Below, piece after piece: positions 2,483-60,144 of a DNA stretch of 64,000 nucleotides. The position numbers and the translations under genes were made by a program. Origin of the DNA: Protula sp. h YS-2021 (Eukaryota > Annelida > Polychaeta > Sabellida > Serpulidae); the NCBI GenBank assembly GCA_949752745.1, contig OX457030.1, positions 72,124,686 to 72,188,685 of the forward strand. The letters are read 5' to 3'. The notes under the pieces are model-generated. The model saw only the letters and a list, made by a program, of their open reading frames with translations, had not been told where the DNA came from and made no database searches. Position 1 is the first letter of the stretch, and every line of letters starts with the position of its first letter.

Positions 2483-3245
2483 CTTGTATGTCTGTGTTAT
2501 ACGTAAAAAAAATGAATGAATTAAATACAAAATAGTTTTACTACACAGCAGTTTGGACACCATTATTATGTGACTGATTCTCGCTTCAAAAAAAAAAAAA
2601 AAAGAAAAAAAGAAAAAAGAAAAATGGCTACTTTCAGCAGCTTTTTAGATAAGGTTAAAGTAGACAAAAACTAAACCTCTACTAGATGTTATTATATGCC
2701 TAGCAAGCCGTACGCAAAGAAATGACAGGAAAAAAAAAAACAACACAGGTGCAGCATTTTCGAACACCTGTTGCACCCCGCCCCCTTTTAAGCATGTTTT
2801 CCTGACATCAGTTGTTCTATTCAGCCACTGACAAAACAACCTTCAAAGACAGGGCCAATGAAAACCTACCACCAGCAACGCAACTCGCACCGCGTCGCCC
2901 CAACTAAGCATACTCAGTTAACAAATAGTATATTGTAAACTAAACCAATTAGAACAGCAAAATAAATTACAGAAAAGCTGATAAATAAAATAGTAATACT
3001 TCATTCTGTATGTGCAGTGTTTTTTTTTTTTATTTTTGTTATTTTTTTTTGCCTGAAACGTAAGGGGTTCGTACGGGTCCGTAGGCTGAAGGCAAACAAT
3101 ATCATTCTCCACATACAGAATGAGGTTTTGCTTTTCTTACAAATCTCACTTCAAGAATACTTTTGTTCAAGTCACAACTATTTTATTAAAGCCGGGTATT
3201 CTATTTTTTATAAAAAAATCAGGAAAAAAGTTCTGGGGAAGGTCT

Positions 3246-6200
3246 GGGGAACCGTAAGTGTGGGGTACAGGAAGCATGGCGTACAGGAAGTGTGGGTACA
3301 GGAAGTGTGGGTACAGGAAGTGTGGGTACAGGAAGTGTGGGGTACAGGAAGTGTGGGGTACAGGAAGTGTGGGTACAGGAAGTGTAGGGTACAGGAAGTG
3401 TGGGGTACAGGAAGTGTGGGTACAGGAAGTGTGGGGTACAGGAAATGTGGGGTACAGAAGTGTGGGTACAGGAAGTGTGGGTACAGAAAGTGAGGGGTAC
3501 AGGAAATGTGGGGTACAGAAGTGTGGGTACAGGAAGTGTGGGTACAGAAAGTGAGGGGTACAGGAAGTGTGGGTACAGGAAGTGTGGGTATAGGAAGTGT
3601 AGGTTACAGGAAGTGTGGGTACAGGAAGTGTGGGGTACAGGAAGTGTAGGGTACAGGAAGTGTGGGTACAGGAAGTGTAGGTTACAGGAAGTGTGGGTAC
3701 AGGAAGTGTGGGCTACAGGAAGTGTGGGTACAGGAAGTGTGGGGTACAGGAAGTGTAGGGTACAGGAAGTGTGGGTACAGGAAGTGTAGGTTACAGGAAG
3801 TGTGGGTACAGGAAGTGTGGGGTACAGGAAATGTGGGGTACAGAAGTGTGGGTACAGGAAGTGTGGGGTACAGGAAGTGTGGGTACAGGAAGTGTGAGGT
3901 ACAGGAAGTGTGGGTACAGGAAGTGTGGGGTACAGGAAGTGTGGGTACAGGAAGTGTGGGTACAGGAAGTGTTGGGTACAGGAAGTGTAAGGTACAGGAA
4001 GTGTGGGTACAGAAGTGTGGGGTACAGGAAGTGTGTGGTACAGTAAGTGTGGGGTACAGGAAGTGTGGGGTACAGGAAGTGTGGGGTACAGGAAGTGTGG
4101 GTACAGAAGTGTGGGGTACAGGAAGTGTGGGGTACAGGAGGTGTGGGGTACAGGAAGTGTGGGTACAGAAGTGTGGGGTACAGGAAGTGTGTGGTACAGT
4201 AAGTGTGGGGTACAGGAAGTGTGGGGTACAGGAAGTATGGGTACAGGAAGTGTGGGGTACAGGAAGTGTGGGTACAGGAAGTGTGAGGTACAGGAAGTGT
4301 GGGGTACAGGAAGTGTGGGGTACAGGAAGTGTGAGGTACAGGAAGTGTGGGGTACAGGAAGTGTGAGGTACAGGAAGTGCGGGGTACAGGAAGTGTGGGA
4401 TACAGGAAGTATGGGTACAGGAAGTGTGGGGTACAGGAAGTGTGGGTACAGGAAGTGTGAGGTACAGGAAGTGTGGGGTACAGGAAGTGTGGGGTACAGG
4501 AAGTGTGAGGTACAGGAAGTGTGGGGTACAGGAAGTGTGAGGTACAGGAAGTGCGGGGTACAGGAAGTGTGAGGTACAGGAAGTGTGGGGTACAGGAAGT
4601 GTGCGGTACAGGAAGTGTGAGGTACAGGAAGTGTGGGGTACAGGAAGTGTGAGGTACAGGAAGTGTGAGGTACAGGAAGTGTGGGGTACAGGAAGTGTGA
4701 GGTACAGGAAGTGTGGGGTACAGGAAGTGTGAGGTACAGGAAGTGTGAGGTACAGGAAGTGTGGGGTACAGGAAGTGTGAGGTACAGGAAGTGTGGGGTA
4801 CAGGAAGTGTGAGGTACAGGAAGTGTTGGGGGTACAGGAAGTGTGCGGTACAGGAAGTGTGAGGTACAGGAAGTGTGAGGTACAGGAAGTGTGAGGTACA
4901 GGAAGTGTTGGGGGTACAGGAAGTGTGAGGTACAGGAAGTGTGCGGTACAGGAAGTGTGAGGTACAGGAAGTGTGGGGTACAGGAAGTGTGAGGTACAGG
5001 AAGTGTGAGGTACAGGAAGTGTGGGGTACAGGAAGTGTGCGGTACAGGAAGTGTGAGGTACAGGAAGTGTGGGGTACAGGAAGTGTGAGGTACAGGAAGT
5101 GTGGGGTACAGGAAGTGTGCGGTACAGGAAGTGTGGGTACAGGAAGTGTGGGCTACAGGAAGTGTGGGTACAGGAAGTGTGGGCTACAGGAAGTGTGGGT
5201 ACAGGAAGTGTGGGCTACAGGAAGTGTGGGCTACAGGAAGTGTGGGTACAGGAAATGTGGGTAAAGGAAATGTGGGTACAGGAAGTGTGGGTACAGGAAG
5301 TGTGGGGAACAGGAAGTGTGGGGTACAGGAAGTGTTGGGAACCGTATAGAAGTGTGGGTACAGGAAGTGTGGGGTACAGGAAGTGTGGGTACCGGAAGTA
5401 TGGGGTACAGAAGTGTGGGTACCGGAAGTGTGGGGTACAGGAAGTGTGGGTACCGGAAGTATGGGGTACAGGAAGTGTGGGAACAGAAAGTGTGGGGACA
5501 GGAAGTGTGGGTACAGGAAGTGTGCGGTACAGGAAGTGTTGGGGGTACAGGAAGTGTGCGGTACAGGAAGTGTGGGTACAGGAAGTGTGGGCTACAGGAA
5601 GTGTGGGTACAGGAAGTGTGGGCTACAGGAAGTGTGGGTACAGGAAGTGTGGGCTACAGGAAGTGTGGGCTACAGGAAGTGTGGGTACAGGAAATGTGGG
5701 TAAAGGAAATGTGGGTACAGGAAGTGTGGGTACAGGAAGTGTGGGGAACAGGAAGTGTGGGGTACAGGAAGTGTGGGGAACCGTATAGAAGTGTGGGTAC
5801 AGGAAGTGTGGGGTACAGGAAGTGTGGGTACCGGAAGTATGGGGTACAGAAGTGTGGGTACCGGAAGTGTGGGGTACAGGAAGTGTGGGTACCGGAAGTA
5901 TGGGGTACAGGAAGTGTGGGAACAGAAAGTGTGGGGACAGGAAGTGTGGAGAACAGGAAGTGTGGGTACAGGAAGTGTGGGTACCGGAAGTGTGGGGAAC
6001 AGGAAGTGTGGGAACAGGAAGTGTGGGGTACAGGAAGTGTGGGTACAGGAAGTGTGGGTACAGGAAGTGTGGGTACAGGAATTGTAGGTTACAGGAAGTG
6101 TGGGTACAGGAAGTGTGGGGTACAGGAAGTGTGGGTACATGAAGTGTGGGCACAGGAAATGTGGGTTACAGGCAATGTGGGTACCGGAAGTGTGGGGAAC

Positions 6201-8006
6201 AGGAAGTTTGGGGTACAGGAACTGTGGGTACAGGAAGTGTGGGGTACAGGAAGTGTGGGTACAGGAAGTGTGGGTATAGGAAGTGTAGGTTACAGGAAGT
6301 GTGGGTACAGGAAGTGTGGGGTACAGGAAGTGTGGGTACATGAAGTGTGGGTACAGGAAGTGTGGGTACAGAAGTGTGGGTACAGGAAGTGTGGGTATAG
6401 GAAGTGTAGGTTACAGGAAGTGTGGGTACAGGAAGTGTGGGGTACAGGAAGTGTGGGTTACAGGAAGTGTGGGTTACAGGAAGTGTGGGGTACAGGAAGT
6501 GTGGGTTACAGGAAGTGTGGGGTACAGGAAGTGTGGGGAACCGTACAGAAGTGTGGGTACAGGAAGCGTGGGGTACAGGAAGTGTGGGTTACAGGAAGTG
6601 TTGGGGGTACAGGAAGTGTGGGGTACAGGAAGTGATGGGTACAGGAAGTGTGGGTACAGGAAGTGTGGGTTACAGGAAGTGTGGGTACAGGAAGTGTGGG
6701 TTACAGGAAGTGTTGGGGGTACAGGAAGTGTGGGGTACAGGAAGTGTGGGGTACAGGAAGTGTGGGTACAGGAAGTGTGGGTTACAGGAAGTGTTGGGGG
6801 TACAGGAAGTGGGGAGTACAGGAAGTGTGGGTACCGGAAGTGGGGGGTACAGGAAGTGTGGGTACAGGAAGTGATGGGTACAGGAAGTGTGGGTACAGGA
6901 AGTGTGGGTACAGGAAGTGTGGGTTACAGGAAGTGTTGGGGGTACAGGAAGTGTGGGGTACAGGAAGTGTGGGTACAGGAAGTGATGGGTACAGGAAGTG
7001 TGGGTACAGGAAGTGTGGGTACAGGAAGTGTGGGTTACAGGAAGTGTTGGGGGTACAGGAAGTGTGGGGTACAGGAAGTGTGGGTACAGGAAGTGATGGG
7101 TACAGGAAGTGTGGGGTACAGGAAGTGTGGGTACAGGAAGTGTGGGTACAGGAAGTGTGGGTTACAGGAAGTGTTGGGGGTACAGGAAGTGTGGGGTACA
7201 GGAAGTGTGGGTACAGGAAGTGATGGGTACAGGAAGTGTGGGGTACAGGAAGTGTGGGTACAGGAAGTGATGGGTACAGGAAGTGTGGGTACAGGAAGTG
7301 TGGGTTACAGGAAGTGTTGGGGGTACAGGAAGTGTGGGGTACAGGAAGTGTTGGGTACAGGAAGTGTGGGGTACAGGAAGTGTGGGGTACAGGAAGTGTG
7401 GGGAACAGGAAGTGTGGGGTACAGGAAGTGTGGGGTACAGGAAGTGATGGGTACAGGAAGTGTGGGTACAGGAAGTGTGGGTTACAGGAAGTGTGGGGTA
7501 CAGGAAGTGTGGGGTACAGGAAGTGTTGGGTACAGGAAGTGTGGGTTACAGGAAGTGTTGGGGGTACAGGAAGTGTGGGGTACAGGAAGTGTTGGGTACA
7601 GGAAGTGTGGGGAACAGGAAGTGTGGGGTACAGGAAGTGATGGGTACAGGAAGTGTGGGTACAGGAAGTGTGGGTTACAGGAAGTGTTGGGGGTACAGGA
7701 AGTGTGGGGTACAGGAAGTGTTGGGTACAGGAAGTGTGGGGAACAGGAAGTGTGGGGTACAGGAAGTGTTGGGTACAGGAAGTGTGGGGAACAGGAAGTG
7801 TTGGGTACAGGAAGTGTGGGGTACAGGAAGTGTGGGGTACAGGAAGTGTGGGGTACAGGAAGTGTGGGTACAGGAAGTGTGGGGAACAGGAAGTGTGGGA
7901 TACAGGAAGTGTGGGTACAGGAAGTGTGGGGTACAGGAAGTGTGGGGTACAGGAAGTGTGGGATACAGGAAGTGTGGGTACAGGAAGTGTGGGTACAGGA
8001 AGTGTA
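3246..8006. repeat. 4.76-kb minisatellite, 14-17 bp unit (GGTACAGGAAGTGTG), about 300 copies
   Basis: Near-perfect copies of GGTACAGGAAGTGTG, with 0-2 extra G and point variants (GGAACAGG, GGTACCGG, GTGATGGG, GTTGGGGG), run without interruption. All three plus-strand frames stay largely open because the unit lacks stops, which gives spurious reading frames up to 568 codons. Variant order shows larger units: a block around 5115-5510 is repeated 439 bp later, and units of about 110-125 bp recur from about 6600 to 7330. The array fills most of the intron between exons 8 and 9 and begins directly at the exon 8 donor. It is non-coding. Confidence 0.97.
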
Positions 8007-8012
8007 AGGTAC

Positions 8013-8162
8013 CGTCCGATTCGCTCTCGGCGGTTTGTTTCTTGCGCGGGTCACGGCGGTTCGCCTCTTTCTTCATATCCCTCCGCTCAGCGTCCGTCTG
8101 CGCATGCGCCGCTCCGGGCTCGCTGTGACGCTCCCGGTCCACCTCGCTCTGCTTGTAAAACC
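8013..8162 (-). CDS. DIDO1/PHF3-like: Exon 8: charged linker before SPOC
   Basis: The 150-base exon follows a strong acceptor (TTTTTTCTTTCTCGTAG) and uses the donor GTACCT (phase 1 to 1). It encodes FYKQSEVDRERHSEPGAAHA followed by QTDAERRDMKKEANRRDPRK and KQTAESESD, a highly charged, probably disordered linker. I chose this acceptor over a second AG nine bases further in because only this one keeps phase with exon 7 and avoids a stop. The donor is the non-consensus GTACCT and is itself the first unit of the 4.76-kb minisatellite. Confidence 0.8.
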
Positions 8163-8989
8163 CTACGAGAAAGAAAAAAATCCATTAAATTAAAGTAAGA
8201 AAGTGAAGAAAGAAAGAAAACATCAATCATCATAATCATCATCATCTTTGCCTTCTCACCCCTCCAAAACAATATATAGGTATACATACAGTGCTTCCCC
8301 GATTGTGCGCCTCCCCCCCCCCCTAGTGTTTCGCCACCCTTGTCAAACGCCAGATATTCTCTGGAACGGACTTCCCTCCCATAGACGCTAATGTGATTTA
8401 TCCGTCACCTTCGCTATCCGCCATTTTCTGCCAACTCTATCGGCAAAAAAAAAACAAAACAAAAACAAAAAAAAAAACGGTCATTTCCTGTGTAAAATCC
8501 CACCCCCCCCCCCCCCCCGCCTAATTTTCTTCTAATGTAAAGACGGCACACAGATTCTTTCTATCATAACTAAACATGTTTGTTTCATGTGTATGTGGAA
8601 TCTGCCACTTAAACATACACAGGGGTTGTCAATTGTGTCTAATCAACTGTAACTGACGAGGTGGTCATGTCACATAAGCCTTAAACGGGAGATAAGTAAA
8701 CCCAGGCGGGGGGGGGGCGGAGGGGGGAGGGAAGGGGGGGCTTAAGTATGTAAAAAAAACCCTATGAGCTTAGTAACACTAGTGTTTGCGCCCTAAAAAC
8801 TGAAAAAAACTACAAATTGTGGACTTGTGTGTATATAAACGACGAACTTCGTAAAACTAGCCGTATGTCTTATTTGCGGTACACTGAATGTACAGATGCA
8901 TATATGCTGCATAGCTCTGCATAATTAAAAAGTAAGTTATATTTAAGTTGTTCATTTTTGTGCATTTTAACACACCTAACTGGATGGCA
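8163..8989. other. Intron sequence with low-complexity runs
   Basis: This is the intron between exons 7 and 8. It contains A-rich and C-rich runs (8443-8477 and 8503-8519), a G-rich run at 8707-8742 and a TATAAAC-like AT-rich part. Short copies of the TATCCGCC motif near 8395-8420 prefigure the array at 8995-9205. No exon was recognised. Confidence 0.7.
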
Positions 8990-8994
8990 AAACA

Positions 8995-9205
8995 TCATCC
9001 TCGATTATCCGCCACCTTCGCTATCGACACCCTCACTATCCGCCACCCTCGCTATCCGCCACCCTCGCTATCCCCACCCTCACTATCCGCCACCCTCATT
9101 ATACGTCACTCTCATTATCCGCCACTCTCGCTATCCGCTACCCTCATTATCCGCAACTCTCGCTATCCGCTACCATAATTATCCGCCACCGTCGCTATCC
9201 GCCAG
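8995..9205. repeat. Minisatellite, 17-18 bp unit (CGCTATCCGCCACCCT)
   Basis: About twelve copies of a CGCTATCCGCCACCCT-like unit with T/C variants are seen. The array lies in the intron between exons 7 and 8, its near end about 85 bases inside the exon 7 donor. It is non-coding in all frames. Confidence 0.9.
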
Positions 9206-9289
9206 GTTTTGCCTCGGTCCCGAAGTTGACAGATAATCGGAGGCGCACTGTATACATACAATAAGGGTGCTGGACGCGCAAACGTTTAC

Positions 9290-9430
9290 CTGCGTAAAAG
9301 GATGGGTTCGCGCCCGCGCCGAAGACGTCGTGGCGGACGTGCGGCGCGTCGGCAGCGACGGTAGGGTAGGCGGGCACCTGCGGGGACGTGGGGCTGGCGC
9401 CATAGTAATGCCCGCCGTAACCAAGGTAAC
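9290..9430 (-). CDS. DIDO1/PHF3-like: Exon 7: Gly/Tyr/Pro-rich linker
   Basis: The 141-base exon has the acceptor TCATCATCAG and a near-consensus donor GTAAACG (phase 1 to 1). It encodes GYLGYGGHYYGASPTSPQVP followed by AYPTVAADAPHVRHDVFGAG and ANPSFYA. The sequence is low in charge and rich in Gly, Tyr, Pro and Ala, as expected for a disordered segment between the CKIC motif and the SPOC domain. The fit of phases with both neighbours supports the exon, since homology alone would not identify it. Confidence 0.85.
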
Positions 9431-9773
9431 CTGATGATGACAGGAATACACACACAATAGAATGCCACGGAAGTAGAACAAATAAATAAATAAAAAATAA
9501 ATAGCAATAAATTAAGAAACTGTTTCTTTGTACAACCAAAGGAATTATTACTTCATAAGAAAATCAGACACTTCTTGTCCAAGGACATTGGGTCGCTTTC
9601 CCGCAGTGGGCTGTGTTTTCTCACTGAACTTGACTGGTCGTTTTCTTCCGTTTTTTATTTTTTATCTTTTTTTCCAACCAAAAAATGAAATGTTTTGGTT
9701 TGCAGGCTGTTTATTTCCGATAAAGCTGATCACTTTTCTTACTCACCACTTTGCTGCTGGTCCACTTTTACAC

Positions 9774-9983
9774 CTAGCGGTTTGTCCTTGTCGGCTCCTG
9801 GGCCTGGGGTGGCGGTGGTAGTGGCGGAGGAGGCGGGGCCAGGCTTGGGTCTGGCCGCCTCGCCATCCGTCTGCCGGCCCGTGCAGATCTTACAGTTGAC
9901 GTCGAAAGGTGCGAGCTATGACTCGTCGTCGTGTCGATAATGGACGACAGCAGGTTGGCGGCCGACTCGTACGGCTGGGCCGG
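9774..9983 (-). CDS. DIDO1/PHF3-like: Exon 6: FDVNCKICTGR motif, with a 1-base frameshift
   Basis: The 210-base exon has the acceptor TTTCGCGCCACCAG and the donor GTGTAA. It opens in phase 0 with PAQPYESAANLLSSIIDTTT then SHSSHL, and closes in a second frame with FDVNCKICTGRQTDGEAARP then KPGPAS...DKDKPL, ending in phase 1. DIDO1 and PHF3 carry a block of the form 'DTT-H--HLFDLNCKICTGR', so both halves belong to one conserved motif. The break falls at a T run (AAA at 9905-9907 on the plus strand) that is one base shorter than the motif requires. The entry phase from exon 5 and the exit phase into exon 7 independently require the same single-base gain. This is either an assembly or sequencing error at a homopolymer, or a real lesion in this allele. 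Confidence 0.88.
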   Translation of the reverse strand, partial: PAQPYESAANLLSSIIDTTTSHSSHLSTSTVRSARAGRRMARRPDPSLAPPPPPLPPPPQAQEPTRTNR

Positions 9984-10140
9984 CTGGTGGCGCGAAAATA
10001 ACAAACGCACAACTATCAATTATGTACGGTATGGTATACTATCCCAGCTGGTGACACAGAAATAACAAACACACCAGAATATCAATTGTGTACAACGAGT
10101 ATACTGGACCCGCTAATGGCGAGAAAATATCAAATATAGA
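9984..10140. repeat. Tandem duplication of the exon 6 acceptor region (about 65 bp, 2.5 copies)
   Basis: GCTGGTGGCGCGAAAATAAC at the exon 6 border (9983) is followed by GCTGGTGACACAGAAATAAC at about 10050 and GCTAATGGCGAGAAAATATC at about 10115. A TATCAATTRTGTAC segment is shared between the units. On the minus strand the second unit still ends in a pyrimidine-rich TTATTTCTGTGTCACCAG, a plausible decoy acceptor. Confidence 0.75.
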
Positions 10141-11021
10141 AGTATCAACTAGAGCGGCCCGTGCACAATATTAGTGTACCCGAACATATCGAACATTTTT
10201 ATTAGCCAGCCATTGCCGTTTTGGTTCGAGTCCCCGCCCCCCCCCCCCCCGACAGCCCCCTCTGCGCCCCCTTTTCCACCGCTTTCCCCCCACCTTCTCC
10301 ATTCCATAAGGATTTAAAAAACTTTTCAACCTGATTACACTCTCCTTTTTCTTTACAAAAAAGCTGATGTTTTTTTTTTGTTTTTTGTTTTTTTTGATAT
10401 TCCGAAAACTAAGAAACTTCTTTTGCCAGTTCAAAACCGTTCTAAAAAACCATAACTTTGCCACTTACTCCATGCAACGGCATCTCCCTTCCCTCACCCC
10501 ACACCCCATCCTTCCCCCCCCCCCATCACCCCACGAAGAACAGAACGTCGCTGAAGCTGATCATTTATATGAACATTCAGTGAACCTAAAATAACCACGT
10601 AAGAGTTTGCATGCACTCCATGGTCCGTTCCTATAAACTTTTTTTTTTTTTTTTTTGCTTCGCGTTTTGATCATGAAAATGAAACACAAAGGCAATAACA
10701 AAAAAAGCGAGGTGTACAACTTCAGATCCATTCTTACATATGTGCGACATTTGGGATCCCTAAGGCCACTACGCTCTCTGGCGTAGTTAAGGCATAATAA
10801 CGAACCAGTAAAGAGGGAAAAAAAAGATCAGAAACAATCGCCCCGTAAAACTTCAATATTAATCTTTGCAAGTCTTCGACCTGCTAAGTGTAAATCAGTC
10901 CGACACGTATTCTTCGGGTATTTGTAGCTAGGCGTTAAAACACGGTGCGAAAGGTTTATTCAAAAACAGCAGACACAGGAATGAATGCACAGGACAGGTG
11001 GGATCAAGCGCATTACACAGG
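10141..11021. other. Intron sequence, no exon seen
   Basis: This is part of the intron between exons 5 and 6. It holds C-runs (10233-10250, 10507-10524) and T-runs (10368-10396, 10639-10657) typical of the window, without reading frames or motifs that I can support. Confidence 0.6.
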
Positions 11022-11063
<42 letters not shown>

Positions 11064-11073
11064 ATATATATAT

Positions 11074-11107
<34 letters not shown>
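11022..11107. repeat. (AT)n / TATATATTA microsatellite
   Basis: About 86 bases of AT repeats with occasional TT breaks are followed directly by a G-rich run (GGGGGGTGGGGCAGTGGGC). Confidence 0.95.
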
Positions 11108-11108
<1 letters not shown>

Positions 11109-11271
11109 GGGGGGTGGGGCAGTGGGCAGGGGGGTAAAGAAATTATAGCAGACCTTTGGGAAGCTCTGCACGTCCTCTCTTGCGATCGCTTGCGTTTTGG
11201 GTAGCTGGACAGTCTGTTAATAAAACATAGTTACAGGGTTACTATGGCAACGGAAACACTGAAACACAGGG

Positions 11272-11747
11272 GAGCATGCGTCACATTCGTGTCATTCCGT
11301 TAGTCACACTCATATCATTCCGTGAGCCACACTCGTGTCATTCCGTGAGTCACACTCGTGTCATTTCGTGAGTCTAACTCGTGTCATTTCGTGAGTCACA
11401 CTCGTGTCATTCCGTGAGTCTCATTCGTGTCATTCCGTGAGTCACACTCGTATCATTCCGTGAGCCACTCTTTTCATTCCGTGAGTCTCATTCGTGTCAT
11501 TCCGTGACTCACACTCGTGTCATTCCGTGAGTCTCATTCGTGTCATTCCGTGAGTCACACTCGTATCATTCCGTGAGTCTTATTCGTGTCATTCCGTGAG
11601 CTCATTCGTGTCATTCCGTGAGTCACACTTCGTATCATTCGTGAGTCACACTCGTTTCATTCCGTGAGTCTCATTCGTGTCATTCCGTGAGTTTCATTCG
11701 TTTCATTCCATGAGTCACACTCATGTCATTCCGTGAGTCTCATTCGT
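11272..11747. repeat. Minisatellite, about 22 bp unit (CGTGTCATTCCGTGAGTCACACT), cut by assembly gap
   Basis: At least twenty copies of a TCGTGTCATTCCGTGAGTC-type unit alternate between CACAC and TCATT spacers. The array runs directly into the block of Ns at 11748, so its true length is unknown. It lies in the intron between exons 5 and 6. On the plus strand the unit contains GTGAGT, but the host gene is on the minus strand. Confidence 0.93.
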
Positions 11748-11947
11748 NNNNNNNNNNNNNNNNNNNNNNNNNNNNNNNNNNNNNNNNNNNNNNNNNNNNN
11801 NNNNNNNNNNNNNNNNNNNNNNNNNNNNNNNNNNNNNNNNNNNNNNNNNNNNNNNNNNNNNNNNNNNNNNNNNNNNNNNNNNNNNNNNNNNNNNNNNNNN
11901 NNNNNNNNNNNNNNNNNNNNNNNNNNNNNNNNNNNNNNNNNNNNNNN
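11748..11947. other. Assembly gap of 200 Ns
   Basis: Exactly 200 undefined bases fill the interval. A round number usually means a gap of unknown size. It is flanked on the left by the 22-bp array and on the right by a T-run and a G-rich stretch (11950-12020), so repeats probably caused the break. Confidence 0.99.
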
Positions 11948-12124
11948 GATTTTTTTTTTTTGGGGGGGGGAGGGGGGAGGGTGTGGGTGGGGGATGGTTG
12001 GGGGTTGGGGTGGGGGGTAGTAGTATCTGAAACCCCTCCCAAGTCGTCTTGATCAGAAAATGACTTTCTGTTATTCTGTCAGTCGGCATTCGTTTCCACA
12101 AATCTCGACAAAAGAACTGGGGCT

Positions 12125-14289
12125 TGCGCAAGTGCTCCGTCATTTCCTTCCTCTTTCTGACAGCCCTGGCACATTCGCTTGGTACTCACCTTGTCTCCGT
12201 AGCGGAGCTTGCGCTAGTCCTCCATCGCTTCCCTCCTCTCTGACAGCTCGGGCACATTCGCTTGGCACTCACCTTGTCTCCGTAGCGGAGCTTGCGCTAG
12301 TCCTCCATCGCTTCCCTCCTCTCTGACAGCCCTGGCATATTCGCTTGGCCCTCACCTTGTCTCCGTAGCGGAGCTTGCGCTAGTCCTCCATCGCTTCCCT
12401 CCTCTCTGACAGCCCTGGCATATTCGCTTGGCCCTCACCTTGTCTCCGTAGCGGAGCTTGCGCAAGTCCTCCATCGCTTCCCTCCGTCTCTGGCAGACCG
12501 GGCACATTCGCTTGGCACTCACCTTGTCTCCGTAGCGGAGCTTGCGCAAGTGTTCCATCGCTTCCCTCCTCTCTGGCAGACCGGGCACATTCGCTTGGCA
12601 CTCACCTTGTCTCCGTAGCGGAGCTTGCGCAAGTGTTCCATCGCTTCCCTCCGTCTCTGACAGCCCGGGCACATTCGCTTGGCACTCACCTTGTCTCCGT
12701 AGCGGAGCTTGCGCAAGTGTTCCATCGCTTCCCTCCGTCTCTGGCAGACCGGGCACATTCGCTTGGCACTCACCTTGTCTCCGTAGCGGAGCTTGCGCAA
12801 GTGTTCCATCGCTTCCCTCCGTCTCTGGCAGACCGGGCACATTCGCTTGGCACTCACCTTGTCTCCGTAGCGGAGCTTGCGCAAGTGTTCCATCGCTTCC
12901 CTCCGTCTCTGGCAGACCGGGCACATTCGCTTGGCACTCACCTTGTCTCCGTAGCGGAGCTTGCGCAAGTGTTCCATCGCTTCCCTCCTCTCTGGCAGAC
13001 CGGGCACATTCGCTTGGCACTCACCTTGTCTCCGTAGCGGAGCTTGCGCAAGTGTTCCATCGCTTCCCTCCGTCTCTGGCAGACCGGGCACATTCGCTTG
13101 GCACTCACCTTGTCTCCGTAGCGGAGCTTGCGCAAGTGTTCCATCGCTTCCCTCCTCTCTGGCAGACCGGGCACATTCGTTTGGCACTCACCTTGTCTCC
13201 GTAGCGGAGCTTGCGCAAGTCCTCCGTCGCTTCCCTCCGTCTCTGGCAGACCGGGCACATTCGCTTGGCACTCACCTTGTCTCCGTAGCGGAGCTTGCGC
13301 AAGTGTTCCATCGCTTCCCTCCTCTCTGACAGCCCTGGCATATTCGCTTGGCACTCACCTTGTCTCCGTAGCGGAGCTTGCGCAAGTCCTCCGTCGCTTC
13401 CCTCCTCTTTCAGACAGCCCTGGCACATTCGCTTGGCACTCACCTTGTCTCCGTAGCGGAGCTTGCGCAAGTGTTCCATCGCTTCCCTCCTCTCTGACAG
13501 CCCTGGCACATTCGCTTGGCACTCACCTTGTCTCCGTAGCGGAGCTTGCGCAAGTCCTCCGTCGCTTCCCTCCTCTTTCTGACAGCCCTGGCACATTCGC
13601 TTGGCACTCACCTTGTCTCCGTAGCGGAGCTTGCGCAAGTCCTCCGTCGCTTCCCTCCTCTTTCAGACAGCCCTGGCACATTCGCTTGGCACTCACCTTG
13701 TCTCCGTAGCGGAGCTTGCGCAAGTGTTCCATCGCTTCCCTCCTCTCTGACAGCCCTGGCACATTCGCTTGGCACTCACCTTGTCTCCGTAGCGGAGCTT
13801 GCGCAAGTCCTCCGTCGCTTCCCTCCTCTTTCTGACAGCCCTGGCACATTCGCTTGGCACTCACCTTGTCTCCGTAGCGGAGCTTGCGCAAGTCCTCCGT
13901 CGCTTCCCTCCTCTTTCTGACAGCCCTGGCACATTCGCTTGGCACTCACCTTGTCTCCGTAGCGGAGCTTGCGCAAGTCCTCCGTCGCTTCCCTCCTCTT
14001 TCAGACAGCCCTGGCACATTCGCTTGGCACTCACCTTGTCTCCGTAGCGGAGCTTGCGCAAGTCCTCCGTCGCTTCCCTCCTCTTTCTGACAGCCCTGGC
14101 ACATTCGCTTGGCACTCACCTTGTCTCCGTAGCGGAGCTTGCGCAAGTCCTCCGTCGCTTCCCTCCTCTTTCTGACAGCCCTGGCACATTCGCTTGGCAC
14201 TCACCTTGTCTCCGTAGCGGAGCTTGCGCAAGTCCTCCGTCGCTTCCCTCCTCTTTCAGACAGCCCTGGCACATTCGCTTGGCACTCAC
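12125..14289 (-). repeat. 83-85 bp array of an exon end plus its 5' splice site, 25 copies
   Basis: On the minus strand each unit reads GGAAGCGATGGAACACTTGC, then GCAAGCTCCGCTACGGAGAC, then AAG followed by GTGAGTGCCAAGCGAATGTG and a short spacer. The first ~43 bases equal the 3' end of exon 5 (14290-14332) and the rest equals the start of its intron. The core CGTAGCGG on the plus strand occurs at 12198, 12281, 12364, 12447, 12531 and so on, up to 14213, with 14298 being the exon itself. Spacing is 83 to 85 bases, with 85 dominant near the exon and 83-84 further away. The GTGAG of the donor is retained in all copies. A partial unit lies at about 12117-12160. Long reading frames through the array are artefacts of the unit. 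Confidence 0.96.
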
Positions 14290-14410
14290 CTTGTCTCCGT
14301 AGCGGAGCTTGCGCAAGTGTTCCATCGCTTCCTGTTCTTTCTTCTGATTCTCCTCCATGATCTTCTGGGCTTCCTGCCTCTGTGTAATGTCCTGGACACG
14401 GCTCGAACGT
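14290..14410 (-). CDS. DIDO1/PHF3-like: Exon 5: Gln/Glu-rich helical segment
   Basis: The 121-base exon has the acceptor TTACTGCAG and the consensus donor GTGAGT (phase 2 to 0). It encodes RSSRVQDITQRQEAQKIMEE followed by NQKKEQEAMEHLRKLRYGDK, a strongly helical, possibly coiled-coil stretch. It is the parent of the array at 12125-14289: the sequence from EAMEHLRKLRYGDK through the donor is what was amplified, while the upstream half (MEENQKKEQ) is unique to the real exon. This makes the real copy easy to tell from the decoys. Confidence 0.9.
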
Positions 14411-14499
14411 CTGCAGTAACAACATGACAGTGTCCCTTTTTTTCTTAGTTGGTTATTTGAACTTTACATCCGTTTTTTTTTTTTTTACCCCAACATACA

Positions 14500-14797
14500 C
14501 TGCTTGCGTTACAAATCTGTGGGACTGTTTGCGCGATTCACTTGTGTTACATTGCTTGCGTTACACTTGTGTTACAGTACTTGGTCTTAAGCTCTGCGAT
14601 ACCGCTTGTTTTACTGCACGTGACAGTTACATAACACTGCGCGCGTTTGACTGTGCGTTACACTGCTTGCGTTACACTTGTGTTACATTGCTTGCGTTAC
14701 ACTTGCGTTACATCGCTTGTGTTGCACTAGCGGCACACTGCGCGCGTCCCACTTTGTTACACCTGTGTTACACCGCGTTACACCTGTGTTACACTAC
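14500..14797. repeat. Degenerate 10-12 bp array (GTTACACTTGCG / GTGTTACACT) at the exon 4 donor
   Basis: Some twenty degenerate copies of TTGCGTTACACTTGTGTTAC-type units are seen. On the minus strand the intron starts GTAGTGTAACACAGGTGTAA, so the array begins inside the donor of exon 4 and runs about 300 bases into the intron. The copies become more divergent away from the exon. The interval 14411-14499 shows nothing else except a T-run. Confidence 0.8.
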
Positions 14798-15039
14798 CTC
14801 TTGGGCTCCACGACACTCCGCCGGCCCCGGCCTCTTCCTCGTCCCCTCCCCCTCTCTCCCCTCTCCTCCTCCCTTTCCTCCTCCTCCTCATCCTCCTCCT
14901 CCTCCTCCTCCTCCGCGTCTTTCGGCTGTGACATCGCGGAACGCGCCTGCGCGCGGGCGTCGCCCTGGGCGCGCTCCACATACGTGTGGTCGGAGAAGGC
15001 GGACGCTATGGCTGCCAGATTGCCGCCTTGCATGCTCTC
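14798..15039 (-). CDS. DIDO1/PHF3-like: Exon 4: acidic / Arg-Gly low-complexity segment
   Basis: The 242-base exon has the acceptor GATTTGACAG and the donor GTAGTG (phase 0 to 2). It encodes ESMQGGNLAAIASAFSDHTY, then VERAQGDARAQARSAMSQPK and DAE. A run of about 16 Glu/Asp follows, then an RG-rich stretch (RGERGRGRGRGRGR) and RSVVEPKR. The acidic run comes from a GAG/GGA triplet tract (TCC on the plus strand, 14870-14930) and may vary in length between individuals. No enzymatic motif is present; a disordered or charged interaction region is the likely role. Confidence 0.82.
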
Positions 15040-15284
15040 CTGTCAAATCAAACAGCTTTTTCTCGTTTTATCCAACTTTAAGATACATTTCCTCGCTTTA
15101 ACTAACTTTAAGATACATCAAGGTTTGCCAGATGGACTATAAAAATTTTAAAAACTTATATTTTATTGGAGAACTTCAAACAGAATAAATCAAAATCCAA
15201 AGCTTCTACTTTGCTGTGAAAAAACTCTTGTGAAAATACATTACCCCGGTAACAGCATGACATTACCCTTGCAAAACCACTACA
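15040..15284. other. Short intron part, no further feature
   Basis: This is the acceptor-side part of the intron between exons 3 and 4. It includes a two-copy direct repeat of ACTTTAAGATACAT (about 15076 and 15104). No exon was seen. Confidence 0.6.
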
Positions 15285-15688
15285 TTACCTTGATGAAATC
15301 TGCCATAACCCTAATAAGACTTTGATTCTAACCTAATGAGATTGCTACATTACCCTAATGGGATTGCGACATTACCCTGAGATTGCGACATTACCCTGAG
15401 ATTGCGACATTACCCTGATGAGATTGCGACATTACCCTAATGAGATTGCGACATTAATGAGATTGCGATATTATCCTGATGAGACTCCGACATCACCCCG
15501 AGATTGAAACATTACATTGAATGGTTTACATCATTGCCCCGAAGAAATTGTGACATTACTCTGATGATATTGCGTTGTGACCATGACGAAACTGCGATAT
15601 TACAGCGATGAGATTGCGACATTACCCCGGCGAGATTACATTACTCTGATGATATTACGACATTACCCTGTGGATATTACGACATTAC
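15285..15688. repeat. 22-bp array seeded on the exon 3 donor (CATTACCCTGATGAGATTGCGA)
   Basis: About eighteen copies of CATTACCCTGATGAGATTGC plus GA are present, increasingly degenerate away from the exon. On the minus strand the unit is CAATCTCATCAGG followed by GTAATGTCG. The first 13 bases equal the last codons of exon 3 (NLIR) and the following GTAATG is its donor. Each intact copy therefore carries an exon tail plus a donor. Confidence 0.88.
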
Positions 15689-15799
15689 CCTGATGAGATT
15701 GTCGTCTATCTCGAAGGGCTCGGCCTCGGGCTGCTCTATGTCGCTGGCATCGCTCTCGTCGATCTTCAGCGAGACGTCCCCAGACGTGTCCATCAGCGC
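15689..15799 (-). CDS. DIDO1/PHF3-like: Exon 3: acidic segment
   Basis: The 111-base exon (37 codons, phase 0 to 0) has the acceptor GTGTTGACAG and the donor GTAATG. It encodes ALMDTSGDVSLKIDESDASD followed by IEQPEAEPFEIDDNLIR. It is acidic and serine-bearing, with possible casein-kinase-type sites (inference). The exon is bounded on both sides by tandem arrays: a 28-bp array starts at its acceptor and a 22-bp array starts at its donor. Confidence 0.85.
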
Positions 15800-17275
15800 C
15801 TGTCAACACGCACACGGCACCAAGGACATGTCAACATGCACGCGTCACCAAGGACATGTCAACATGCACGCGGCACCAAGTACATGTCAACATGCACGCG
15901 GCACCAGGTACATGTCAACACGCACACGGCACCAAGTACATGTCAACATGCTCACGGCACCAGGTACATGTCAACACCACACGGCACCAAGTACATGTCA
16001 ACACGCACACGACACCAGGTACATGTCAACATGCACACGGCATCAAGTACATGTCAACATGCACACGGCATCAAGTACATGTCAACATGCACAGGGTACC
16101 AAGTACATGTCAACATGCACAGGGAACCAAGTACATGTCAACAGGCACACGGCACCAAGTACATGTCAACAGGTACACGGCACCAAGTACATGTCAACAT
16201 GCATACGGCACCAAGTACATGTCAATATGCACAGGGCACCAAGTACATGTCAACAGGCACACGGCACCAAGTACATGTCAACATGCACACGGCACCAAGT
16301 ACATGTCAACAGGCACACGGCACCAAGTACGTACCAAGTACATGTCAACAGGCACACGGCACCAAGTACATGTCAACATGCACACGGCACCAAGTACATG
16401 TCAACATGCACACGCCACCAGGTACATGTCAACATGCACACGGCACCAAGTACATATCAACACGCACACGGCACCAAGTACGTACTAAGTACATGTCAAC
16501 AGGCACACGGCACCAAGTACATGTCAACATGCACACGGCACCAAGTACATGTCAACATGCACACGGCACCAGGTACATGTCAACATGCACACGGCACCAA
16601 GTACATGTCAACATGCACACGGCACCAGGTACATGTCAACACGCACATGGCACCAAGTACATGTCAACATGCACACGGCACCAAGTACATGTCAACACGC
16701 ACACGGCACCAGGTACATGTCAACACGCACATGGCACCAAGTACATGTCAACATGCACACGGCACCAGGTACATGTCAACATGCACACGACACCAAGGAC
16801 ATGTCAACATGCACGCGGCACCAAGTACATGTCAACACAAACACGGCACCAGGTACATGTCAACATGCACACGGCACCAAGTACATGCCAACATGCACAC
16901 GGCACCAGGTACATGTCAACATGCTCACGGCACCAGGTACATGTCAACATGCACACGGCACCAAGTACATGTCAACATGCACACGGCACCAAGTACATGT
17001 CAACATGCACACGGCACCAGGTACATGTCAACACGCACATGGCACCAAGTACATGTCAACATGCTCACGTCACCAGGTACATGTCAACATGCACACGGCA
17101 TCAAGTACATGTCTACATGCACACGGCACCACGTACATGTCAACATGCACACGGCACCAGGTACATGTCAACACGCACACGGCACCAAGTACATGTCAAC
17201 ATGCTCACGGCACCAGGTACATGTCAACATGCACAGGGCACCAAGTAGATACCAAGTACATGTCAACTTTTATAC
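15800..17275. repeat. 28-bp array ending at the exon 3 acceptor (ACATGTCAACATGCACACGG), about 52 copies
   Basis: Units ACATGTCAACATGCACACGG plus CACCAAGT run for 1.47 kb with scattered substitutions (ATGC/ACGC/AGGC, AAGT/AGGT). On the minus strand a unit ends ...GCATGTTGACATG, while the true acceptor reads ...GCGTGTTGACAG. The functional splice site is thus a unit in which AT is replaced by AG. All plus-strand frames are open (up to 550 codons), but this is a unit artefact. Confidence 0.95.
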
Positions 17276-17590
17276 GGCACCAAGTACTACGACGCAGTAT
17301 CTTAATGACATAGTGAGTACCTTGGCAGCTCCGCCAGTACCTTAACAATTCACTGAGTATCTTATATCATCTAACGTTAACGGCTTAAGCAAAGACCTGA
17401 GGGCTCAGCCAGTACTAACGACATAGTACCTTAACAACTCAAGGAGTACCTTAACAGCTCAGGGAATATCTTAAGAGTTAACTAAGTACCTTAACACGTA
17501 AGAGACTTAACGGCTTGAGGAGTATCTTTATGTTGACGGCACAGCGAGTACTTTTACAAGTCTCAGCGAAGAGCTTAATGGCTCCGTGAG
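17276..17590. repeat. Degenerate 20-26 bp array (AGTACCTTAACAACTCAG)
   Basis: About twelve loosely conserved copies of a GAGTACCTTAACAGCTCAGG-like unit lie between the 28-bp array and the CACCGACA array. They belong to the intron between exons 2 and 3. No coding feature was seen. Confidence 0.65.
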
Positions 17591-17639
17591 CACGGGCAAA
17601 ATAACACAGAATCGACCACACAGACAGACATGCGACCAT

Positions 17640-18330
17640 ACATACACCGACAGGCCCCCCCCCACAAACACCGACACCCCCGCCCCCCCCCCTCAAACAC
17701 GGACAACCCCGCCCCCGCCCCCAAAAACACCGACACCCCCCCCCCGCCCCACAAACCCCGACTCCCCCGCCCACCCTCCACAAACACCGACACCCCCGCC
17801 CCCCCCCCGCCCCACAAACACCGACACCCCCGCTCCCCCCCACAAACACCGACACCCCCTCCCCCCACAAACGACACCCCCTCCCTCCCCCCCACAAACA
17901 CCGACACCACCCGCCCACCCCCCACAAGCACCGACAACCCCGCCCCCGCCCCCAAAAACACCGACACCCCCCCGCCCCACAAACACCGACACTCCCTCCC
18001 TCCCCCCACAAACACCGACACCCCCCGCCCCCCCACAAACACCGACACCCCTCGCCCCCCCGCCCCACAAACACCGACACCCCCTCCCCCCCCACAAACA
18101 TCGACACCCCTCCCTCCCCCCTCCACAAACACCGACACCCCCCGCCCCCCACCCACCCCCCCACAAACACCGACACCCCCGACGCCCCACAAACACCGAC
18201 ACCCCCTCCTACAAACACCGACACCCCCTCCCCCAACAAACACCGACACCCCTCGCCCCCCCCCCAAACATCGACACCCTCTCCCTCCCCCCCCCCCCCC
18301 CCACAAACACCGACACACGGACACACGGAC
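17640..18330. repeat. C-rich / G-rich minisatellite (CACAAACACCGACACCCCC)
   Basis: About thirty copies of CACAAACACCGACACCCCC with variable C runs are seen. The transcribed strand (minus) is GGGGGTGTCGGTGTTTGTGG, which is strongly G-rich and capable of quadruplex formation. The array ends about 45 bases inside the exon 2 donor, linked by ACACACGGACACACGGACAC. Long proline/threonine or glycine/valine reading frames across it are artefacts. Confidence 0.95.
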
Positions 18331-18377: not shown

Positions 18378-18506
18378 TTGTTTCGGGGTCTCTTCAATCT
18401 GCCCTATTCCCTGACTCAATATTTTCTGACCCTCGGGAGTGGATTGAAGAACTTCGTCCAGTTTCGCTATGGCGTCCTGTCCCAAGGCACTAAACAAGTT
18501 CTTCTC
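18378..18506 (-). CDS. DIDO1/PHF3-like: Exon 2: helical segment
   Basis: The 129-base exon (43 codons, phase 0 to 0) has the acceptor TTTTTTTGAAG and the consensus donor GTGAGT. It encodes EKNLFSALGQDAIAKLDEVL followed by QSTPEGQKILSQGIGQIEET and PKQ. The amphipathic pattern suggests one or two helices. I do not recognise a named domain; the exon is placed in the gene by splice-phase continuity and strand. Confidence 0.82.
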
Positions 18507-18850: not shown

Positions 18851-19205
18851 CTCCAGTGGAGTTTCTATAGCGGTGTAGTTCCAAGCTGTGCTGGAGCCCT
18901 GTGGAACACCAGATGCTTGTGGAACACAGGAGCCTTTCGGAGGCGAACGCTCAGCAGTGGGCACCTGCAGCTCTGTCCGCCGGATATCAGCCGGTGGCGT
19001 GCTGGCGTCCACGGGTGGCGGCGGCGGGGTGGCGTGTGCGCTAGAGTGAGGCGAGGACACGCGCTGTACGACACCGACATGTGACGGCAGCGACAGGCGT
19101 TCGATGGAGACGGTGACGTGGGAGGTGACGTTTGAGGTGACGCTGGAGGTGATGTTAGCGGTGGTAGGTAGAGGGGAATCAGATTTGCAAGAAGTCATAG
19201 TTTTC
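18851..19205 (-). CDS. DIDO1/PHF3-like: Exon 1 of those seen: Ser/Thr/Pro-rich segment
   Basis: The 355-base exon follows the pyrimidine-rich acceptor TTTTTTTCTTTGTGTGGAAG and ends at the donor GTGCGT (phase 2 to 0). It encodes KTMTSCKSDSPLPTTANITS, then SVTSNVTSHVTVSIERLSLP, and later HATPPPPPVDASTPPADIRR and STAWNYTAIETPLE. It is a disordered Ser/Thr/Pro-rich region with a short internal VTS repeat. Because it enters in phase 2, at least one more exon lies at higher coordinates. The acceptor choice is the least certain part. Confidence 0.72.
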
Positions 19206-23159: not shown

Positions 23160-24470
23160 TTTACTTGGGTTAGTTTTGTTGAAGAGTTGCTTCATACAGT
23201 CAGCTCTGAAATGTCTTGAGCGTATCTCGTCGAAATCAATAGTCTATCAGAATATGTTTTACAATAAAACGTTCTTGACACCCAAGGCACTTGGGTGTCT
23301 CTTAAGAAGGTGCTTGTGAGAGATATATGTATGTCCTATTCTGGCCCTGTGATAAACCACTTCATCTCGCACACTGTCTAGTTGCGGGGGTTTTTGTCCA
23401 ACCTAGGGGGATAGTTTGATACAGCTTATTGTTTCTTTGTTTGTTCCATCTTTCTTGCCAGTCTTTTTGTGTATCTTGTGTTTTTGGTATTTAAAATATC
23501 AGTACAATTATTACTTATAGCATTTTTTGCAGCTTTGTCGGCTATCTGGTTTCCTCGGATTCCCATGTGACTTAAAACCCAAGCAGAACACTATGTCTTT
23601 ACCAGCTTAGGCGGCATCGTCATGCCTTTCCAGCAGATCAAGGATAAGAGGGTTTGATATTTGTAGGTTTTCAATTGATTGCAGGACGGACATCGAGTCC
23701 ACGAATAACATAAACTTTTTGTATCGGCCGATCTTCATTATCTGGATACGTGATGGATAGCTTTAATTTCCGCTGAGAAAATATAGGATCCATCTGGAAG
23801 TCTTGTTTTCAAGGTGTTGTTTTCAGTTATAACCGATTTATTGTCGAGCTTTGAGCTGTCCGTGTGGACGAAATGATAGCCTTTAAATTCTTCCTTGAGC
23901 TCTGCAGTTTGATCAAAATAGAAAAGGGCTAGTTGTTTCCTTTGCATAGACGAAAGGTTCTATACCACAGGTTTGGTGAGCTCCCACTGTGGTACTTTGG
24001 TACTCTGTATTTTGCGAATGACTCTGTGGGATTGCCAGTATTATCGAGGTGAGGCAGAACCCTCGCTCCGAATGGAGGTATTAGGGTTGGGCTTCTTTCG
24101 TGGAAGCGGGAAAAATCAGATGCAAAGAAGGAGTTGTACGTGAGATTCTTATTTGCATCAAGTTTTGTTGCGTACTGCATGGCGAGTTTAATTCGACGAA
24201 CGCTAAGAGGTTGCTCATTTTCCCCCACATGCAGACTTTCCCCTGATGATGTTCTAAAATCATTTAGACACAGTCGTAAACTCTGATTTTGTATCGGGTC
24301 GAGCATTTTTAGGTATGACGGTCTTGCTGATCTATACCCAATGCTGCCATAGTCTACTTTGGACCGTATCAAGGCTCGGTAAAGCATACGTTCTGTATCC
24401 CGATCTGCCTTCCAAAGTGAATTATATAACAAGATAGCAAAAAGAAAGAAAAAAACAAACAAACAAAACA
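23160..24470 (-). mobile_element. LINE (I-group type), decayed ORF2 3' end: RT C-terminus, RNase H, tail
   Basis: At 24410-23930 (minus) the reading frame has WKADRDTERMLYRALIRSKV, DYGSIGYRSARPSYLKMLDP and later ENEQPLSVRRIKLAMQYATK. This is the conserved region just downstream of the reverse transcriptase palm in jockey/I-like LINEs. RNase H follows in other frames: FVHTDSSK, RLPDGSYIFSAEIKAI, then CWVLSHMGIRGNQIADKAAK at about 23590-23520. A non-LTR element with RNase H fits the I superclade (I, Nimb, R1, LOA). Frameshifts and stops show that it is dead. Endonuclease and most of the palm are missing. Confidence 0.8.
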
Positions 24471-24479
24471 AAATTCATA

Positions 24480-25265
24480 TCTCCAGTGTACATTCTTATC
24501 TGAACAAATAGTGTATTATTAAGCAATTTTGAGCAGCAGGCAGTTACCATTGGTAATGATATTCCTTTAATGCCAATAACACGACACACTTGCTTCAACG
24601 TTCACTATCAACCCTCAGTTTAGAACTGATAGGTAAAACGATCTTAATAATATAAAAAGATTACATATAGTAGTTTGTTTGTGTTGTACAATTTGAGTAA
24701 AACATTACTTAACTGGTGATTAATCGAAAGGAAACAAGAACGTCCGGGTACAATGTGACAAGACGAGACCTGCTTGATGTAACATTGATAAGTCACCTTC
24801 TAGAGATCATCTGCCCATATCAATAGAATAACTGGACCGAAGTCCAAGATTTGGCGAAATTGGTCATAACAAAATAAACAAAGAAAAAAAAAAAACACAA
24901 ATAATATTTACAGTTGTACTGTGTGGAGTTGGTAAATGAGGCCTAAAACGCTGTATCTCTAACAATTTTTTTTCTTTATTTATGAAAAAATGAGACAATT
25001 TGGCCGAATTTGCCAATAATAAATTTTGTTTTATTTTCAACGTGTATAATGGGTAGTTCGAAAATCAGGGCTATATCGCCGTTTTCCTTACAGTTTCCGT
25101 TATAAACTACCTTCTTCTCGAAATTAGGCCGTGTTAGCAAATTTGGCGAAGCTGGTCACAATCAAAATTTGTACCTCGCGTACTCTGTTACACTATGTAA
25201 CGTTCCTATCACCCTCGCATTCGGTTTTCTTTCTATCATTGCTTATTGACGGTCCTATTTCTATT
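24480..25265. other. No feature recognised
   Basis: AT-rich DNA between the two LINE parts. It lacks the expected ORF2 endonuclease and palm sequence. No gene or repeat was recognised. Confidence 0.5.
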
Positions 25266-25269
25266 AATA

Positions 25270-26420
25270 GTTACTTTGTGCGGTTTAGATTGCGGAGGTC
25301 AAGACACGTGTTGGGCGCATCTGTTTCACTGTCCTTATCTATTAACGTGGAAAAACGGTCATCGATTGCTTCCTCTTGGGATGTGGCCCGCAGTCTCTCT
25401 TTTGCCTGTCGCACTCGATCTTTGCCTCGAGATCCTGTTTCAACATCCAGTCCTGTTGGTGGAGAGCTAGGTGATTTTGCCAGGCATATCGCTTTTCGCG
25501 ATGTATCCTGTTCTGATGGCTTACTCGGTGATGAAGTGCGATGAACGTGCGTGGTCAACTGCGTCTCCTGGGAAGACTTCCTCACTGCAGTATTACAGCC
25601 AGTCGAGTCAGCATACGTGCCCGTCCAAACCTTCGACTTTTTGGGGGTTGGTTCGACACGAAATGGTGTTTCAGTTGTGACCAACGTAATGTCAGTCTGG
25701 CATGAAGCTTCTCAGGTACAAATCTTCGCAGTGTGGCAGCGTACGGGGTGGACTCTTCGTGCTTTAATTTTTGCATTTCCGGTGAGCAACACTGGGCAAT
25801 CCTTAGAGGACGCTGGGTGGTTTCCCTTGCAGTTACTGCACTTGGTATCACCAGTACAAGATTTGTAATCATGAAAGTCCTCACCGCAATTTGTCCATCT
25901 TACCTTATGCCTTTTATACTTGCCGCTACTATGTCCATATCCCTCCCAGTTGTAGCACAGCACAGGGTTAGGGATGCAGGGCTTGATGCCTACTTTAAGG
26001 TAGCCAACTCCCACATCTGATGGCCACGATGACCTCCGGAATGTAAATGGGAAAGCCGAGTCCACGGCATCCTGTGACTCCTTACTTGTCGAGCTCGAGT
26101 TCCTCCTCTGTACTGAAATTTAGTTCAGGGTGAATAACAACTCCTTTGGTGTAGTTCAATGTGTGATGAGGGGTGCTTTTCACTGGCATATTTACAAAGG
26201 TTTTCATTTTCAGAAGATTTTTACTCTGTTGAGTACTTTTATTAAAATATCGCCTGAAAGGTGTCTTTTGACATCTTTTTGAACTGCAAATAGTAAAAGT
26301 TTGAAAGAAACTTGCTGTGGCGAAACAACGATGTAATTATTGCAGGAGGTACACTCATGTCTTAAGTACGGACGCTTGTTAGCGCCTTTTGGTGTTTGCA
26401 AATCGGTGTGTTCATAATTC
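25270..26420 (-). mobile_element. LINE ORF1 (gag-like) remnant with CCHC knuckles
   Basis: Read on the minus strand from about 26400 down, fragments resemble LINE ORF1: KMKTFVNMPVKSTPHHTLNY then TKGVVIHPELNFSTEEELE, followed by CYNWEGYGHSSGKYKR, CGEDFHDYKSC and CSNCKGNHPASSKDCPV. The last two fit CX2CX4HX4C-type knuckles. A charged region, SRGKDRVRQAKERLRATSQE, follows at about 25430. Stops and frame changes occur between the blocks. It lies upstream, in the same orientation, of the ORF2 remnant at 23160-24470, so both may be one internally deleted insertion. Confidence 0.75.
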
Positions 26421-33179: not shown

Positions 33180-33690
33180 TCTTGTACAAATTGCTTAATT
33201 TTGCTACGTTCTACTTCATCAAACAGCTGCCCCGGGGCGTCGGCTCTGAAGTGCCGTGTCCGGATACCTCGGAAATCGATAGAGTCCATTAAAATATGTT
33301 TCACTGATAACGTTCCTGACACCCGACACATTCGAGTGTAGGTACAGTTCTTAAAAGCTGCTCATGACTGACAAATGTATGCCCTAACCTTGCCCTGTGT
33401 TTAACCATATCGTTCCGGACACTAATTAGAGAGGGCAATTTACGCCCAACAATAGGACTGATGTCAAACAGCCGGTTATTCTTTTATCTGCTTCACTGTC
33501 GTTGCCATAAGTATTTTTTTTATCACAGACATGGTATTTAAAGTCTTGTATGGGATCACGAAATCGGAACAGTTCTCGTTTAGCGCCTCCTTAGCCGCTC
33601 TATCAGCTATCGCGTTTCCTCGAATTCCAACATGACTTGGAACCCAACAGAAAATGTTTAAAAGCCTTGATGACACAGTAAAATTTTTCT
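33180..33690 (-). mobile_element. LINE 3' fragment (RNase H end plus tail), second copy
   Basis: The minus strand encodes FCWVPSHVGIRGNAIADRAA then KEALNENCSDFVIPYKTLN, the end of a LINE RNase H domain. It is followed in transcript sense by RLGHTFVSHEQLL and a CVGC motif and then by stops. The tail (33240-33450) aligns with 23215-23390 of the first LINE, so both come from one family. It is 5'-truncated, as is usual for LINEs. Confidence 0.8.
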
Positions 33691-33699
33691 TTACGTAGT

Positions 33700-60140: not shown

Positions 60141-60144
60141 GGTA

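Follow-up and report, generated by a model that had tools for sequence, protein, structure and literature searches.

Why should tandem arrays of unrelated sequence lie against several splice junctions of a single gene? The question is posed by a 64,000-nucleotide stretch of the genome of the serpulid annelid Protula sp. (positions 72124686–72188685 of contig OX457030.1, in an 863-Mb assembly with contigs of up to 114 Mb), which was analyzed as a whole and is called the window here. On its minus strand, at 1–19.2 kb, lie ten predicted exons of one SPOC-domain gene of the PHF3/DIDO1 type. The initial annotation of the window proposed, as an inference from their positions, that the arrays in this gene come from a recurrent amplification process linked to junctions. 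We favor, with a probability of about 0.7, a different interpretation: the arrays are junction-spanning minisatellites of the type called mirages in lancelets (amphioxus), and arise from general local duplication that splicing tolerates.

Arrays at the junctions of a SPOC-domain gene

The clearest case is exon 5 (14290–14410, in a phase-compatible frame), which has the donor AAG|GTGAGT. An array of 26 units (12122–14332, on the minus strand like all exons and arrays of the gene described here) extends over ~2.2 kb and was identified with Tandem Repeats Finder (TRF) and by unit alignment. Its unit of 83–85 bp consists of the last 43 bp of exon 5, the donor, and ~41 bp of intron. The donor hexamer is GTGAGT in 24 of the 26 units and GTGAGG in the other two. 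The exon tail occurs in three versions (EAMEHL in 12 units, including the exon copy; EATEDL in 10; and EAMEDL in four), and the coding sequence of exon 5 seems to take part in homogenization with the noncoding copies.

Exon 3 (15689–15799, phase-compatible) has arrays at both ends. A degenerate 22-bp array (15332–15701, by TRF) holds its weak donor, AGG|GTAATG, together with 13 bp of the exon, and AGG|GTAATG is present in several of the units. Exon sequence within the unit, which the initial annotation had described for the exon 3 and exon 5 donors, is thus found at both. At the other end of exon 3, a 28-bp array (15801–17286, by TRF and sequence) ends 1 bp from the acceptor, which is composite: TTGACA comes from the last 28-bp unit and the G of the AG from the flank. 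The largest array, of ~300 units of 15–16 bp over 4.8 kb (3237–8012, by TRF and inspection of units), begins directly with the first base of the intron after exon 8 (8013–8162), leaving no gap. The weak exon 8 donor, ACG|GTACCT, has its GTACCT in the first unit; the commonest units carry GTACCC, a poor donor. An 11/25-bp array (14634–14794, by TRF) ends 3 bp from the predicted and doubtful donor of exon 4 (14798–15039, phase-compatible, 3' end uncertain), and two copies of a 30-bp unit (15058–15118, by TRF), absent from the initial annotation, lie 18 bp from the acceptor of the same exon. The arrays at exon 8, exon 4, and the exon 3 acceptor only abut their junctions, with units that do not span the boundary.

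At exon 6 (9747–9983), where a 65-bp array had been claimed, sequence comparison reveals three diverged copies (9980–10170) with a 31-nucleotide core, at 81% and 71% identity and a spacing of 64–65. The copies are present, but TRF does not report them as an array; all other arrays of the initial annotation were confirmed by TRF at their positions. The first two copies carry a pyrimidine tract and CAG, and the first holds the likely exon 6 acceptor, which fits better at 9983 than at 9974. Exon 6 contains a one-base frameshift and is readable in two frames, as with one missing or extra base, which may reflect either an error in the assembly or a genuine lesion of the gene.

Three further arrays, all detected by TRF, stand apart from junctions. 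A 28–29-bp array (17655–18316), whose plus strand is C-rich, stops 61 bp from the donor of exon 2 (18378–18506), and a 16-bp array (9006–9204) lies 85 bp from the donor of exon 7 (9290–9430); both exons are in phase-compatible frames. A 23-bp array (11280–11747) is located inside intron 5, away from junctions, and runs into a gap of 200 N (11748–11947).

The identity of the gene, proposed earlier as DIDO1/PHF3-like, is borne out by a domain search of the predicted protein, which found a SPOC domain (PF07744, E 2.1e-7) encoded by exon 9 (2328–2491, first part) and exon 10 (1184–1273, next part). The closest solved structure is that of PHF3 (PDB 6ic8, E 4.2e-5). A SPOC search of the genome gave two places (L001 and L002), of which L002 is Spen-like by eye. 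Regular expressions for PHD and TFIIS motifs found none within the window. Exon 1 (18851–19205, open frame, donor GAG|GTGCGT) is the first one found in the window, and the gene may begin with an earlier exon; a 12/24-bp tandem repeat (19112–19163) lies within its predicted coding sequence. Exon ends are sequence predictions throughout, with phase kept across all nine predicted joins. A homologue search returned nothing at E ≤ 10 among the 8,000 candidates scored, so exon ends could not be compared with those of orthologues.

Exon ends copied in domain-anchored exons

Exons fixed by a domain match, and hence independently of repeats, were examined elsewhere in the genome: 90 of 104 matches to SNF transporters and 30 of 139 matches to kinesins. 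Sides were excluded if they lay at an end of the domain (query start ≤20 or end ≥500 for SNF, ≤5 or ≥322 for kinesin) or if a stop fell within 12 residues. This left 91 acceptor sides (67 SNF and 24 kinesin) and 93 donor sides (74 and 19), which are not fully independent, as some SNF exons are neighbors or paralogues. The match can run some bases past the splice site, examples being L016 and L095.

Units that carry an exon end and its splice site, as in the window gene, recur in this sample. Among SNF exons, L066 (113 bp, 4.6 copies) and L067 (114 bp, 2.6 copies) have the acceptor and ~50 bp of conserved exon in the unit; these are paralogues with a common unit and a copy number that differs within the one assembly. 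Other SNF acceptor arrays are those of L061 (43 bp, 4.8 copies) and L062 (47 bp, 6.3 copies), and L083 has a donor array (78 bp, 2.6 copies). Two-copy cases occur at an SNF donor (L070) and an SNF acceptor (L055), neither of them reported by TRF at score 40. Among kinesins, the array of L104 (74 bp, 11.0 copies) includes the acceptor and ~44 bp of exon, and L114 also has an acceptor array (41 bp, 3.0 copies). The acceptor of kinesin L095 lies inside an array (68 bp, 7.8 copies) with hardly any exon, and in SNF L004 the units of a 32-bp array end by eye at the acceptor AG, with TRF placing the array edge 11 bases inside the exon.

The frequency of such copying was measured with 18-mers from the exon edge that recur, at ≥15 of 18 bases, within the 300 bp of intron next to them. 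They did so at seven of 91 acceptor and two of 93 donor sides, or at eight of 184 sides in this one genome after L095, whose 18-mer proved intronic on viewing, was removed from the nine. Controls from the opposite edge of these exons gave 0 of 184 (P 0.0036), with one of them at 14 of 18. Exon edges are really copied, yet not above the intronic rate: intronic 18-mers recurred in 101 of 847 cases on acceptor sides and 52 of 831 on donor sides (together 153 of 1,678), and the comparison with exon edges gave P values of 0.16 and 0.11, both towards fewer (the intronic counts entered were 101 of 846 and 54 of 834).

The edges of arrays were also located relative to the exon match, in an interval reaching 15 bp out from the exon and 60 bp into it. 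The enrichment of array ends at splice sites that the initial annotation expected was absent at donors (3 observed vs. 3.38 expected, 93 sides) and modest at acceptors (9 vs. 3.12, 91 sides, P 0.005); both types together gave 12 vs. 6.5 (P 0.034). Two arrays fell just beyond the interval, those of L066 at +62 and L104 at +63, and one of the donor edges counted, at L016, belongs to an A-rich repeat at a place where the match runs beyond the splice site.

Four SNF transporter genes (L055, L061, L066, and L067) have copies of the same acceptor and exon head, at domain position ~325, in three repeat architectures; this junction may be a hotspot. L114 (1401–2023 in exon orientation) has its acceptor-spanning array on one side and, on the other, a C-rich 28-bp array 5 bp past the exon match.

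These observations are consistent with a local tandem duplication that is blind to exon borders and would copy short segments throughout introns. Where a segment included a junction, the exon-proximal copy (the first donor or the last acceptor) would be used, with a normal mRNA as the predicted result, and all other copies of the junction would become intron. Use of the exon-proximal copy would leave the functional junction no more than one unit away from the edge of the array, so that the array would look seeded there; apparent seeding therefore needs a null model matched for coverage. Purely intronic arrays would grow and homogenize as far as the exon, where selection against repeats further inside it would stop them, and in places the original splice signal would have been replaced by a weaker one derived from the array. 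The weak donors of exons 3, 4, and 8, where arrays abut, would fit such replacement.

Chance, amplification, and misplaced junctions

Two null models for the window gene ask different questions, one about the proximity of array edges to junctions and the other about the rate of repetition there. When arrays were shuffled within introns, the observed contact (an array within 5 bp at five of the 18 sites, 0.33 expected) was reached in none of 200,000 shuffles; P was 8e-5 without the exon 4 donor and 0.02 without the weak donors of exons 3, 4, and 8. In the coverage-matched model, 18-mers at intron edges recurred nearby (≥14 of 18 bases) in 6 of 18 cases and interior intronic 18-mers in 53 of 150, so junction-adjacent sequence shows no excess of repetition over the rest of the introns. 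A third model placed arrays at random anywhere in the gene; it was discarded because arrays then cover exons. At further exons of the gene, downstream and outside the window (L053; three exons, read by eye and not homology-anchored), none of the six predicted ends comes as close as 5 bp to an array detected by TRF; the smallest distances are 13, 21, 30, 67, 173, and 249 bp. This result is weak support at best for contact between arrays and junctions.

Four points weigh against an origin by general, border-blind duplication. Array edges in the window gene are closer to the predicted junctions than random placement in introns allows. The sample covers two gene families, and its exon boundaries come from domain matches. 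Array edges are in excess on its acceptor side, so a bias towards acceptors is possible. Lastly, the region of the window gene is far more repeat-rich than the sampled loci, for which we have no explanation: tandem repeats make up 54% of the window at 1–22 kb, 1.1% at 22–60 kb, and 28% at 60001–64000, compared with 6.6% in the first 32 sampled loci and 9.3% in the 30 kinesin loci.

The alternative closest to the initial annotation is that a recurrent process, such as R-loop breaks near 5' splice sites or repair involving nascent RNA, starts arrays at junctions. It would account for the result of the intron shuffle, for the acceptor-side excess in the sample, and for the presence, within one gene, of several junctions whose arrays are unrelated in sequence. 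Amplification aimed at junctions is nevertheless unlikely, given that domain-anchored donors have no excess of array edges and that exon edges, in the sample as in the window gene, are copied no more than intronic sequence. R-loops near 5' splice sites further predict a G-rich RNA-like strand. The arrays near the exon 2 and exon 7 donors, which are not linked to them, fit this prediction, with coding-strand GC skews of +0.81 and +0.66. The six linked arrays, however, have no common sign, ranging from −0.73 at exon 8, in the largest array, through +0.03 (exon 3 donor), +0.04 (exon 6), +0.13 (exon 4), and +0.24 (exon 3 acceptor) to +0.25 at exon 5, and the R-loop model was rejected on these values.

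Alternatively, exon ends may have been set at array edges where coding-like sequence stops, in which case part of the coincidence would be an artefact of how the gene was read. Donors were scored with a position weight matrix. The six donors that have no contact with an array score 7.6–9.4 (exon 1, 8.2; exon 2, 9.0; exon 7, 7.6) and that of exon 5 scores 12.2; the donors of exons 3, 4, and 8 score low, at 5.6, 4.5, and 3.1. For exon 4 there is an alternative donor of the same phase at 14983, 186 bp upstream, with a score of 5.3. Being both weak and at array edges, these three donors were placed in part by circular reasoning, and the shuffle gives P 0.02 without them; their scores fit either misplacement or the replacement of an old donor by array sequence. 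On the other hand, exon 5 combines the strongest donor with coding sequence within its unit, the open frames of exons 3 and 8 offer no phase-compatible donor scoring >2 other than the one chosen, and the same anatomy is found in domain-anchored exons. We regard misplacement as an improbable explanation of the coincidence.

The intact GTGAGT of exon 5 units and the recurrence of AGG|GTAATG among exon 3 units would fit spare donors or acceptors that selection maintains to protect or regulate splicing. This is very unlikely: recent homogenization accounts for intact copies, the commonest exon 8 units carry a poor donor, and no interference with splicing was reported in lancelets (PMC3087553).

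A bolder and rather unlikely reading is that junction-spanning minisatellites are common and still forming in animals well beyond lancelets, with a real mutational bias to acceptor ends. Exon ends would then evolve in concert with dozens of copies in introns, and array units would replace splice signals.

Lancelet mirages, related systems, and other features of the window

The arrays had been thought to reveal a new route to minisatellites, a novelty that does not hold, as the class is already in print. Its original description is reportedly a lancelet Adh report of 2002. Mirages are minisatellite-like tandem duplications of exon–intron boundaries, described in lancelet Adh3 and in the globin genes BflGb6 and BflGb9 (PMC3087553) as well as in PGBD5 and troponin C (PMC3902484). 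According to PMC3087553, their mechanism is unclear and regular splicing is seemingly undisturbed. The Protula arrays are tandem repeats of minisatellite unit size, and their unit spans an exon–intron boundary at exon 5, at exon 3 (with 13 bp of exon), and at the SNF and kinesin exons. The arrays resemble lancelet mirages in having units of exon end, splice site, and intron, in occurring as both donor and acceptor types, and in concerted evolution within arrays; similarly, some arrays of PGBD5 abut the 5' splice site. Unit lengths overlap, with 10–72 bp in Adh3 and 150–160 bp in the globins compared with 43–114 bp here where exon is copied and ~15–32 bp where arrays abut a junction or include 13 bp of exon. 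Unlike those in lancelets, the arrays here are large (26 units in 2.2 kb; ~300 units in 4.8 kb) and several occur in one gene.

Two other systems are related. Internal tandem repeats occur at exon–intron boundaries of recently duplicated human genes (PMC2812944). They likewise have minisatellite units across boundaries and are able to add splice sites, but they differ between recent paralogues and form new introns, whereas existing introns are enlarged here. Tandem duplication of genomic segments may also give rise to introns (PMC4974935; Rogers 1989 and Zhuo 2007, both cited in PMC3087553) and similarly copies splice signals. No intron with both ends from one duplicated segment was seen in the window gene. 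Only intron 5 is linked to arrays at both ends, and there the 83–85-bp unit of the donor does not appear to be related to the 65-bp unit of the acceptor; in the other linked introns, just one end has a linked array.

We found the name mirage in print only for lancelets, with the related boundary repeats in duplicated human genes, and a literature search with limited coverage of subscription journals turned up no mirage-type structures in molluscs or other non-chordates. The class probably gains a new lineage with this genome. Lancelet genomes are smaller than its 863 Mb. The arrays offer material for asking how splicing chooses one of many near-identical sites, and for following intron growth and the turnover of splice signals.

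Outside the gene, a long open frame of 1,890 amino acids (49968–55637, within 49405–56577) resembles by eye the polyprotein of a BEL/Pao-type retrotransposon. The same 21-bp tandem repeat occurs on either side of it, at 49405 and 56530, as in two long terminal repeats (LTRs). Fragments at 23900–26100 and 33479–33748 resemble, again by eye, pieces of non-LTR retrotransposons and RNase H.

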